Position numbers and translations under genes: made by a program
Shown: piece by piece, positions 9,916-14,319 of the stretch
Numbering within the stretch: position 1 is the first letter of the stretch
How the letters are laid out: every line of letters starts with the position of its first letter
The notes under the pieces: generated by a model
The model's input: only the letters and a program-made list of their open reading frames with translations
What the model was told of the DNA's origin: nothing
Databases searched by the model: none
Assembly: GCA_001816455.1 (NCBI GenBank)
Contig: MHCB01000039.1
Span: 1-42,046, forward strand
Source: Candidatus Blackburnbacteria bacterium RIFCSPHIGHO2_12_FULL_44_25
Lineage (GTDB): Bacteria > Patescibacteriota > Microgenomatia > UBA8517 > UBA10165
Length of the DNA: 42,046 nt
Direction: 5' to 3'

Positions 9916-9948
9916 TAGCCTGCAACTTACTCCCAAAGTAATTAAAAA

Positions 9949-10560
9949 ATGATCAAAGCAATAATTTTTGACTTAGACGGAGTTTTAGTTGACGCAACCG
10001 ACTGGCATTACGAAGCGCTGAATGACGCACTTGGACTCTTTGGTTTTGAGATAACAAGGGAAGAACACATGGGTTTTTACAACGGGTTACCCACAGCCGA
10101 AAAATTAAAAGTGCTTTCCGAGAAGAAAAGACTCCCGCTAGAACTCCACGAAATAATCAAGAGAATGAAAAGAAAGTATACCGACGAAAAGGTCGCACAA
10201 CTTTGCAGACCAAGCCACGAAAAACAAATTATGCTTACGCAACTAAAAACAAAAGGATATAAACTAGCCTGTTGCTCAAATGCACAAAAATACTCTGTCG
10301 TAAACATGCTAAGATATGCTGGAATTATGGATTTTTTCGACTTAGTGATAGGCAATGACGAAGGGTTTGCGGCCAAGCCCGCCCCGGATATTTATCTGGC
10401 AGCATTCAAACAGCTAGAAATTTCCCCCAAAGAAGCAATCATCGTTGAGGATGCCCCGCACGGCATTCAGGCCGCAAAGTCTTCTGGTGCAAAGGTAATA
10501 CCAGTCAAGGGCTACCACGAAGTCGATTTGTCTCTTTTTACAAAGTCAAGAATTATCTAA
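9949..10560 (+). CDS. HAD-superfamily hydrolase (beta-phosphoglucomutase/phosphatase-like)
   Basis: IIFDLDGVLVDATDWHYEALN; CCSNA; GNDEGFAAKPAPDIYLAAFKQL; IIVEDAPHGIQAAKSSGAKVI. Confidence 0.92.
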   Translation: MIKAIIFDLDGVLVDATDWHYEALNDALGLFGFEITREEHMGFYNGLPTAEKLKVLSEKKRLPLELHEIIKRMKRKYTDEKVAQLCRPSHEKQIMLTQLKTKGYKLACCSNAQKYSVVNMLRYAGIMDFFDLVIGNDEGFAAKPAPDIYLAAFKQLEISPKEAIIVEDAPHGIQAAKSSGAKVIPVKGYHEVDLSLFTKSRII

Positions 10561-11292
10561 ATGGCAAAAACACTAAACATTGTAGTTCCTCTTGCCGGCG
10601 CAGGCACTAGTTTTATAAAGGCCGGATATAGTTTCCCGAAGCCATTAATTGATATTAACGGCAGCCCAATGATTCAGGCAGTTATAGAAAACCTAAAGCC
10701 AAAGTTGGGCCACAAATTCATTCTTATTTGCCGGCAGGAACATTACGAAAAATTTGGTCTCTATCAAATTTTTTCTAATGCAACCAGTAATAACTATGAA
10801 TGTGTCCAACTTACCACCCCCACAAAAGGCGCAGCCTGTACGGTACTAACGGCAGTTGATTTTATAAACAACGACAACGAATTGCTTATTGCCAATGCAG
10901 ACCAGTTAGTTGATACAAAAGTAGATGCATTCATCAGATTTGCGAGGAAAAACAAACTCGACGGTGCTATCATGACTTTTGAATCAAACCACCCAAGATG
11001 GAGCTACGCTTTGGCAGACAAAAAAGGAAATGTAATGCAGGTTGCGGAAAAACGAGTAATCTCAGACAACGCAACAGTTGGTCTTTATTATTTTAAAACA
11101 GGCAAGTCGTTTGTTGAAGCTGCGGGAAGTATGATAGAAAAAGACGTTAAAGTGAATGACGAATTTTTTGTAAGTCCCGTTTATAATGAGTTGATATTAT
11201 CAAACAAAAAAATTATGATCTATCCCATAGATAAGGAGAAGATGCGCAGCTTGGGTACGCCGGAAGATCTGCGCGAATTTTTAGAAAAATGA
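10561..11292 (+). CDS. Sugar-phosphate nucleotidyltransferase-like protein (paralog 1)
   Basis: NIVVPLAGAGTSFIKAGYSFPKPLIDINGSPMIQAVIENL; LLIANADQLVD. Adjoins the HAD stop codon directly (TAA ATG). Confidence 0.8.
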   Translation: MAKTLNIVVPLAGAGTSFIKAGYSFPKPLIDINGSPMIQAVIENLKPKLGHKFILICRQEHYEKFGLYQIFSNATSNNYECVQLTTPTKGAACTVLTAVDFINNDNELLIANADQLVDTKVDAFIRFARKNKLDGAIMTFESNHPRWSYALADKKGNVMQVAEKRVISDNATVGLYYFKTGKSFVEAAGSMIEKDVKVNDEFFVSPVYNELILSNKKIMIYPIDKEKMRSLGTPEDLREFLEK

Positions 11293-12059
11293 TTGTAGTT
11301 ATCCCGATGGCCGGTCGAGGTTCAAGATTTTTAGAAGCAGCCGATCAAAATCCAGAATACTTGAACCCAAAACCTCTTATTTCCATCCTCGGGAAACCCA
11401 TGGTAAAGTGGGCACTAGATTCCCTGTCTTCGCTTCAAGTGCCTTCAAGTAAACTTATTTTTATATGCAGACGAGACCACGAAGAGGAATTTAATATCTC
11501 AACGGAACTTAAAAAAATCTTCGCAGAAGATATAAATGTCTTATTTGTTGACCAGATAACTCGAGGCGCCGCAGAAACAGTGCTTATTGCCAAAGAATTT
11601 ATAAACACAGACGAAGACATTATAGTCTCCGACTCAGACCACTACTTTGACGGAACTCCGCTGTATGAAGCAATTAAAAACAGAAATCCCGAGACTGCAG
11701 GTATAATCCCAGTCTTTGAACCGCCAGACAACGAACCTAAATGGAGCTACACATTGTTTGACGAGAATAATGTAGCCTCAGCAGTCGGTGAAAAAGACGC
11801 AGCCCTGGCTGCTCAAGGTGCGTACGCAAACATAGGCGGATACTATTTCTCAAAAGGAAGTGTTTTTGTTGCAGAGGCCGAGGAGATGATTGAAAAAGGA
11901 GAAATGTACGGAGCAGAAGGGAAGAAAGAATTTTATATGGCCCCCGTCTACGATCGATTAATTAAAAAAGGCCACAGAGTCGAAGTAGCAATTATTCCCC
12001 AAGTCTGGGGCCTTGGTACTCCGAAAGATTTGGAGTATTTTGAAAAGAACTTCAGCTAA
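11289..12059 (+). CDS. Sugar-phosphate nucleotidyltransferase-like protein (paralog 2)
   Basis: VVIPMAGRGSRFLEA...NPKPLISILGKPMVKWALDSL; IIVSDSDHYFDGTPL. Start overlaps the upstream gene (ATGA). Confidence 0.82.
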   Translation: MIVVIPMAGRGSRFLEAADQNPEYLNPKPLISILGKPMVKWALDSLSSLQVPSSKLIFICRRDHEEEFNISTELKKIFAEDINVLFVDQITRGAAETVLIAKEFINTDEDIIVSDSDHYFDGTPLYEAIKNRNPETAGIIPVFEPPDNEPKWSYTLFDENNVASAVGEKDAALAAQGAYANIGGYYFSKGSVFVAEAEEMIEKGEMYGAEGKKEFYMAPVYDRLIKKGHRVEVAIIPQVWGLGTPKDLEYFEKNFS

Positions 12060-12073
12060 TTACCCAGTAAACA

Positions 12074-12505
12074 ATGTATCGCACGACGTCAAAGGAAGTA
12101 ACCTATCAAAACTCTAGAAAAACCGAGGAGGGGTGCTATTTTTGCAACCCTATCCCAGAATCAATTGTTAAAACATTTAAAAACTTCTATGTTGCTAAAA
12201 ATAATTATCCTTATGACATTTGGGATTATCTTGAAGTTTCAGAACACCTGCTTCTTGTTCCAAAAGCGCATATGACCGGTTTCAAAGGGATGGATAAAGA
12301 TTCGCGTGAGGAGTATTTCAACGTAATAACCGACTATTCAGAACAAGGGTATGATGTCTTCACTCGCGCGACTAACTCGCTTATTAAAACACAACCTCAT
12401 CTTCATACACATTTGATCAAACGTACCCAAAAAAGAATTAAAAATCTGAAATATCAAAAAGATCCATATAATTTAGATATTGACTTTGTTGAGCCTGAAG
12501 CGTAA
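12074..12505 (+). CDS. HIT-family (histidine triad) protein
   Basis: CYFCNPIPES...NYPYDIWDYLEVSEHLLLVPKAH; histidine triad QPHLHTHLIKR. Confidence 0.85.
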   Translation: MYRTTSKEVTYQNSRKTEEGCYFCNPIPESIVKTFKNFYVAKNNYPYDIWDYLEVSEHLLLVPKAHMTGFKGMDKDSREEYFNVITDYSEQGYDVFTRATNSLIKTQPHLHTHLIKRTQKRIKNLKYQKDPYNLDIDFVEPEA

Positions 12506-13618: not shown

Positions 13619-13653
13619 TGGACAAACATATAACGATCGTGATATAAATGTCC
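13619..13653 (+). promoter_or_regulatory. Palindromic operator-like element overlapping a predicted promoter
   Basis: GACAAACATATAACGATCGTGATATAAATGTCC (13621-13653); 12 of 16 base pairs symmetric over 13621-13652. Contains -35-like TGGACA (13619-13624) and -10-like TATAAA (13643-13648) with an 18-bp spacer. Confidence 0.55.
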
Positions 13654-13662
13654 TAGCTTCAT

Positions 13663-14181
13663 ATGCCTAACTTGCCTGAGAAAAAGCGCAGTAAGGTCAC
13701 AAACTTAATTCTTTTGACCTTGGAAAAGTCTATTGACGGGCTCGTAAGACTCGAGGATTTAATGTCCAAACGAAACCACTACGCGTATGGCTACGGCTGG
13801 GATTATCCTTTGAAAAAAGCATCATTGGCCAAGGCTTTGCAAAGGCTACGTGAGGGCGGATTTGTGGATTTGATCGAAGACGAAGAATTGATCTTAAGAT
13901 TAACGGATAAAGGAAGAAAGAAAGCAGTAATTGCCGAGCTCCAAAGCCCGGGGGAAAAATGGGATCGTAAATGGAGAGTCGTGATATTTGACATACCAGA
14001 GAAAAGAAGAGCGGCCAGAGATTTGTTGAGACATAACCTAAAATCCTGGGGTTTTACTTCTTGGCAGAAAAGCGTTTGGGTTAGCAAAAAGGATTGCACA
14101 AAAGCCCTAAGAAAATATATTTCCAGTATTGGAATAGAGGAATGGGTATTGATTTTGGAAACTGATAATATTGGTCGGTAG
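13663..14181 (+). CDS. PaaX-like regulator / Cas2-like fold protein with N-terminal winged-helix-like region
   Basis: N-terminal SLAKALQRLREGGFVDLIEDEELILRLTDKGRKKA is winged-helix-like; C-terminal WDRKWRVVIFDIPEKRRAARDLLRHNLKSWGFTSWQKSVWVSKKDC...EEWVLILETDN matches the PaaX C-terminal / Cas2-like ferredoxin fold pattern. Not part of a CRISPR locus. Confidence 0.75.
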   Translation: MPNLPEKKRSKVTNLILLTLEKSIDGLVRLEDLMSKRNHYAYGYGWDYPLKKASLAKALQRLREGGFVDLIEDEELILRLTDKGRKKAVIAELQSPGEKWDRKWRVVIFDIPEKRRAARDLLRHNLKSWGFTSWQKSVWVSKKDCTKALRKYISSIGIEEWVLILETDNIGR

Positions 14182-14212
14182 ACAAACATTGCACGATCGT
14201 GCAATGTTTGTC
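14181..14212. repeat. 32-bp perfect palindrome at the 3' end of the PaaX/Cas2-like gene
   Basis: GACAAACATTGCACGATCGTGCAATGTTTGTC equals its own reverse complement. The first G is the last base of the TAG stop codon (14179-14181). Confidence 0.97.
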
Positions 14213-14319
14213 CTCGTAAAATAAAGCAAACCCCGGGCGGGAATATGGTGGTAATGTAGGCGGTGTGGATGAGGAGTCTCGAGAGAATTGAAGTGTTGGC
14301 GACAACCGATCCTGAAGAC

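Follow-up and report, generated by a model that had tools for sequence, protein, structure and literature searches.

The window, the whole stretch of 42,046 nucleotides that was analysed, contained a gene (13663-14181, forward strand) encoding a PaaX/Cas2-like protein of 172 amino acids that was bracketed by two palindromes of 34 bp. The left palindrome (L, 13620-13653; halves GGACAAACATATAACGA and TCGTGATATAAATGTCC, split at the centre) had 13 of 17 symmetric pairs, and the right palindrome (R, 14180-14213; halves AGACAAACATTGCACGA and TCGTGCAATGTTTGTCC) had 16 of 17 and was perfectly symmetric over 32 bp (14181-14212). Both had the core CGATCG, located at 13634-13639 in L and at 14194-14199 in R. 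The two palindromes aligned without gaps as direct-repeat partners, with 25 of the 34 positions identical, and the TAG stop codon of the gene (14179-14181) shared two bases with R. The bracket score of the pair was 58, whereas the highest score among 400 block-shuffled controls was 37. A promoter-like sequence on the forward strand (13619-13648), TGGACA (13619-13624) followed after 18 nucleotides by TATAAA (13643-13648), was embedded in L. The two-hexamer fit was 10/12 in L versus 8/12 in R, and the asymmetries of L fell mainly at this sequence. A preliminary description had proposed both the related, gapless pair of palindromes and a promoter lying across the upstream one where its symmetry is imperfect, and both proposals were borne out.

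The whole unit measured approximately 595 bp (13619-14213, forward strand). Its neighbours in the window were HIT, cupin, LigT-like, GDPD and inositol-phosphatase genes, and R adjoined a convergent gene. A role of R as an intrinsic terminator was rejected, since no terminator-like hit was found in the window.

The protein consists of an N-terminal winged-helix part followed, at the C-terminus, by a Cas2-like ferredoxin part that contains D110 and Q135/S137; the C-terminal PaaX domain is missing. The match to Pfam PaaX_M (PF20803; 4e-22) exceeded the curated cut-off (78.5 bits versus 24), while that to Pfam Cas2 was weak (7.9e-4) and below its cut-off (20 bits versus 23.8), as was the match to NCBIfam Cas2 (23.3 bits versus 24.5). 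The score for TIGR02277, the full-length PaaX equivalog, fell far short (33.1 bits versus 264.55). A structure search with an AlphaFold model of the protein (pLDDT 78.8) returned E. coli PaaX (8a39) at the top and Cas2 chains lower down. The TM score of the model to full-length PaaX was low (0.39), and the fold was therefore placed by its E-value and domain order together with the sequence profiles.

D110, which occupies the position of the Cas2 metal-binding aspartate at the end of strand 1, was present together with R119 and S137 in all 127 aligned proteins that reach those columns, and Q135 in 126 of the 127. There is no aspartate at the D110 position in E. coli PaaX. The conservation of these four residues suggests, without proving it, that the PaaX/Cas2-like protein carries out metal-dependent chemistry. 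An N-terminal loop (approximately residues 33-50, window protein numbering) occurred in a few exchangeable versions, such as YHHYRYHYGIPELKK, NPLLERPVKK and HHSYSYAWGSGW, that tracked neither the rest of the protein nor the type of palindrome, a pattern that suggests mosaic recombination.

Palindrome pairs around PaaX-like genes in Patescibacteria

PaaX_M genes were found in 164 of the 374 genomes of the class to which the window belongs, with up to 11 per genome; the genome of the window (841 kb, 39 contigs) has a single one. A similar palindrome pair with the core CG(A/G)(C/T)CG, or CGRYCG, lay around 47 of the 58 loci examined in the class. In the set of GTDB genomes, which overlaps the class set in some genomes, 68 of the 80 homologous loci from across the Patescibacteria had the bracket at a threshold score of 47. 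Thus, the palindromes accompany the gene in relatives, a co-occurrence that the preliminary description had put forward as a check of its reading. The carriers included Daviesbacteria, Curtissbacteria, Blackburnbacteria, Uhrbacteria, Yanofskybacteria and one Parcubacteria MAG. The palindromes had the core in common and were alike within a locus and unlike between loci. Some loci (L221, L227 and L230) had paired palindromes with cores other than CGRYCG (TTGCAA, CTATAG, CTTAAG).

On a contig of a Daviesbacteria genome (G113) that served as a control, only one of the 591 ORFs of at least 140 amino acids reached the threshold, and this ORF was its PaaX gene. The motif by itself, searched for in G113, led to a PaaX-like gene that was bracketed in the same way and had 41% identity to the gene of the window. 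The bracket score at E. coli paaX was 30, indicating that the gene has no palindrome bracket.

A scan of viral contigs at the protein level gave no relative. A phage origin was rejected, and the pattern matches in IMG/VR (L007 and L008) were chance matches in unrelated phage genes. An exact scan of the genome collection for the R half gave no match. The literature search, whose coverage excluded most subscription journals, found no report that links palindromes to PaaX genes in these bacteria, nor any on PaaX with Cas2 and a palindrome or on PaaX in the candidate phyla radiation; given this limited coverage, the novelty of the arrangement is provisional.

Geometry and joint change of the two palindromes

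The start codon was typically 17-20 nucleotides downstream of the centre of L. The stop codon lay at R, often ending 15 nucleotides short of its centre; it is thus either part of R or directly adjacent to it. A promoter-like pair (at least 10 of 12 matches) was present in L at 38 of 68 loci, in R at 8 of 68 and at 0.6% of random places, which supports the assignment of a sigma-70-like promoter-like sequence to the L palindromes. The symmetry of the palindromes at the class loci peaked at the core and 12-15 bp from the centre. This profile appears to resemble that of a winged-helix dimer on duplex DNA and not that of a hairpin.

L and R were more similar in the direct (mean 26.0/34) than in the inverted orientation (mean 23.8/34). 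The direct similarity was the greater in 44 loci, the inverted in 8, and the two were equal in 16 (p = 2e-7). Moreover, the two palindromes changed jointly. At seven Daviesbacteria loci occupying one syntenic place, the palindromes differed strongly between species, with L and R agreeing within each. For instance, the palindromes of two syntenic orthologues (L041 and L067) matched at 11/34 and 9/34 positions between the loci and at 26 and 29 of 34 within them. Such joint change needs either one protein that reads both sites or conversion between the sites.

One explanation is an autorepressor of the PaaX type, in which L shuts off the promoter of the gene, R is an auxiliary site that acts by looping or as a roadblock, and lone palindromes elsewhere in the genome are further sites of the regulon. 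The PaaX fold, the promoter-like sequence within L and the joint change of L and R, which fits a single protein reading both, are consistent with this explanation. E. coli PaaX, a known repressor that is also annotated as one, provides a precedent. However, R is difficult to reconcile with such a role. In the window, as in 21 of 64 loci, the gene next to R was convergent, and the spacing between L and R showed no helical phasing. Looping over a fixed length was rejected for lack of helical periodicity, and R as the operator of a downstream gene was rejected because of the convergent genes that face it, both in the window and at one third of the loci. In addition, the bracket is absent at E. 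coli PaaX itself. A plain autorepressor accounts for L and not for R or for the insertions described below, thereby explaining half of the arrangement, and as a complete explanation we consider it rather unlikely. The preliminary description had read the pair as an autoregulatory operator with a second site at the end of the gene; the first half of that reading is supported by the promoter-like sequences in L, while the second half does not account for R, given the convergent genes beside it, the lack of phasing and the lone palindromes.

Whole units and lone palindromes

At this place, the window was homologous to each of two Daviesbacteria loci from one palindrome edge to the other. With L151, the homology block found by blastn was 13621-14212 and the flanks had no homology. 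With L152, the block was 13619-14213, accompanied by a separate block at 9940-12265. The latter consists of sugar-nucleotide genes, 66% identical to those of L152, that are 123 bp from the unit in L152 and 1354 bp from it in the window. These were the only two pairs in which both edges of the homology fell within 1 bp of the outer edges of the palindromes; in most pairs of loci the homology ended inside the unit. In 304 pairs without flank homology, the overrun was at most 6 bp past R and at most 10 bp past L (four cases). Homology ending at the edges of the palindromes indicates that the unit behaves as a self-contained cassette. The alternative in the preliminary description, a cassette of approximately 590 bp with palindromic ends, is therefore the better fit, also in view of the insertions in an Uhrbacteria genome considered below. 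Among the loci compared, there were no identical or near-identical complete units at two unrelated places. The Daviesbacteria units were mostly syntenic and old, which implies that movement of the gene as such is rare. In G113, the tRNA-Leu/aminopeptidase locus was empty of the gene unit, at a divergence too great for the ends to be placed.

The palindrome was also found alone. Two more exact occurrences of the half-site ACAAACAT-N3-ACGATCGT were located in the 841-kb genome of the window by the genome search that the preliminary description had outlined. One, on contig 37, was intergenic and near-symmetric (14/17 pairs). The other, on contig 33, lay inside the leuS reading frame, where it encodes GQTLHDRDKNVQ in a loop of LeuRS whose length varies widely among relatives. 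The nearest relative (G002) lacks this palindrome, which fits an in-frame insertion, although the hypervariability of the loop makes the case merely supportive. The same loop in another genome (L141, G003 leuS) holds a different in-frame repeat-like insert (KFEIRNSK...LKFKIEN), and the loop thus seems to collect repeats. As a gauge of horizontal transfer, LeuRS gave no usable orthologue from G113. The preliminary description had named the occurrence of the motif at unrelated loci as a finding that would speak against it. Such loci were found, and they argue against a simple operator and for a mobile palindrome.

Palindrome symmetry on a 744-kb contig of G113 was bimodal: two strong sites formed the unit, and five more, together with a weaker sixth, stood alone. 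Three of these six matched the unit types of other species and not that of G113 itself, and three of the six lay between convergent ORFs. No flanks common to the lone palindromes and to units elsewhere were found, and orthology between them was rejected on this basis. A 4.4-Mb bin that is probably mixed (G388) contained 11 palindromes of related types, compared to none for a reversed-pattern control, and PaaX-like genes at two places among the sites read. In another genome (G242, contig 9, 46390-46470, within L121), two lone palindromes of different types were 46 bp apart in one intergenic region; candidates on the same contig at 46958 and 46997 were rejected as coding sequence for a membrane helix.

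The clearest spread was observed in the Uhrbacteria genome G387. The palindrome was present in 11 copies, 10 of them identical, with one PaaX-like gene between two and the other nine alone. In an alpha/beta hydrolase gene the palindrome formed an in-frame insert of 17 amino acids that was absent from six of six homologues, the closest of which was 72% identical, and another copy lay inside a peptidase-like ORF. The palindrome has thus been shown to act as an insertion-competent sequence in this genome. There was no consistent target-site duplication around the G387 copies. At one place (L280 3368, contig 9), the inserted palindrome was extended on either side by seven bases in symmetry (GTGTCGT/ACGACAC), a hint that a pre-existing dyad was the insertion target. 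Beside the PaaX unit on contig 6 (44042-46961; L275 6042-8961), two non-homologous genes were each bounded by the same palindrome. They had a common stretch of approximately 105 bp, 93% identical, on the promoter side and similar terminator-like ends, an arrangement reminiscent of arrayed cassettes.

Lone palindromes thus occur in genomes with and without a cognate gene. Further regulon sites of an autorepressor would have to include palindromes within ORFs and between convergent genes, palindromes that insert as a unit and, in G113, types for which the genome has no cognate gene; each of these observations counts against that explanation. The lone sites might also be scars of recombination between L and R, comparable to solo LTRs, left by an old gene in direct repeats that now has no dedicated mover. 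L and R are indeed direct repeats and the lone sites resemble known unit types, but the ten identical copies in G387, one of them in frame in a gene whose homologues never held the unit, make such an origin very doubtful.

Alternatively, the palindromes could be a miniature element of another enzyme, for example an IS200/IS605 or RAYT-type Y1 transposase, with the PaaX-like gene captured between two copies, one of which came to be used as promoter or operator. The palindromes are competent for insertion, and Y1 transposases were found in the genome of the window (6), G113 (3), G242 (8) and G388 (18). However, there was no Y1 (PF01797) hit in G387, the genome with the clearest spread, although this is a draft from which a transposase could be missing. 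Moreover, the palindromes co-occur and co-vary with one gene family across the phylum, and repeated capture at both ends in dozens of loci is unlikely. Mobilization by another enzyme is accordingly an improbable account, to which we give little weight.

Comparison with known systems and a proposed mechanism

Small mobile repeats have been reviewed (PMC2229807). Among known systems, RAYTs (REP-associated tyrosine transposases) with their REP palindromes offer a close parallel. In both, the gene lies between two copies of a palindrome (here at 68 of 80 loci) and the same palindrome is scattered through the genome (here in that of the window, G113, G387 and G388). RAYT orthologues retain their genomic position even as the palindromes on either side change in concert (PMC2817692), and the genes and flanks of the Daviesbacteria loci do likewise. 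In contrast, the window protein is PaaX/Cas2-like, matching PaaX_M and only weakly Cas2 in Pfam, without an HUH Y1 domain. The flanks are closer in direct orientation, while those of REPs are inverted, and the 34-bp site is centred on a CGRYCG core and lacks a GTAG head. There are 2-10 lone copies per genome, compared to more than 100 REPs. The lack of a Y1 domain and the direct flanks exclude the unit from the RAYT family.

E. coli PaaX (PDB 8a39), the best structural match, likewise combines a winged helix with a Cas2-like middle domain and belongs to PaaX_M in Pfam. The window protein differs in being 172 amino acids long without the C-terminal domain, in having no paa operon, in keeping the Cas2 aspartate and in being encoded within a palindrome bracket. 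With the Cas2 of CRISPR-Cas it has in common the ferredoxin domain, the conserved aspartate and a Q-S-V motif. Unlike Cas2, it is fused to a winged helix and scores under the Pfam and NCBIfam cut-offs for that family, and neither cas1 nor a CRISPR array was found among the neighbouring genes examined.

Rickettsia palindromic elements are short palindromes inserted in frame within coding genes. We know of no protein associated with them, whereas the palindrome described here brackets members of one gene family.

On balance, we lean towards a unit that resembles RAYT/REP but is based on an unrelated Cas2/PaaX protein, which would both repress its own promoter and handle the palindromes. Such a unit would consist of two directly oriented copies of the palindrome flanking one gene, whose product, a winged-helix and Cas2-like protein, most likely recognizes the palindrome as a dimer. 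Since the left copy appears to hold the promoter, the protein probably represses its own gene upon binding, and the right copy would mark the other end of the unit. The palindrome itself is a short mobile sequence, with lone copies in spacers and in frame inside genes. By analogy with RAYT/REP, the Cas2-like protein most likely mobilizes or copies the palindrome, and only seldom the complete unit, acting at the CG(A/G)(C/T)CG core, possibly by cleavage. Several observations point to the protein as the mover, 1) the association of the gene with the palindrome, 2) their joint variation, 3) the lack of a Y1 hit in G387 and 4) the conserved aspartate. Against the RAYT/REP-like reading, there was no repeated near-identical unit, no exact empty site and no clean target-site duplication, the lone palindromes are few in comparison with REPs, and the palindrome looks like a dimer site on double-stranded DNA, as expected for a repressor.

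The layout, found in dozens of tiny genomes of uncultured Patescibacteria, has the appearance of a minimal mobile-DNA system of a kind not described before. More tentatively, it may represent a new class of mobile DNA in which a free-standing Cas2-like nuclease fused to a winged helix recognizes a palindrome of approximately 34 bp with a CGRYCG core on both sides of the gene that encodes it and disperses copies of this palindrome through the genome, a functional counterpart of RAYT/REP on the Cas2 fold that is possibly linked to the Cas2-like handling of CRISPR direct repeats.

If this reading is correct, the system would be among the commoner repeat-handling systems of Patescibacteria, given the proportion of class genomes with PaaX_M-type genes and the palindromes at most of the homologous loci checked. 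These small genomes would gain a mobile palindrome able to insert inside genes, and a protein of the Cas2 fold would have its own cognate direct repeats outside CRISPR. The diversity of the units would also offer many natural pairs of protein and site for studies of specificity.
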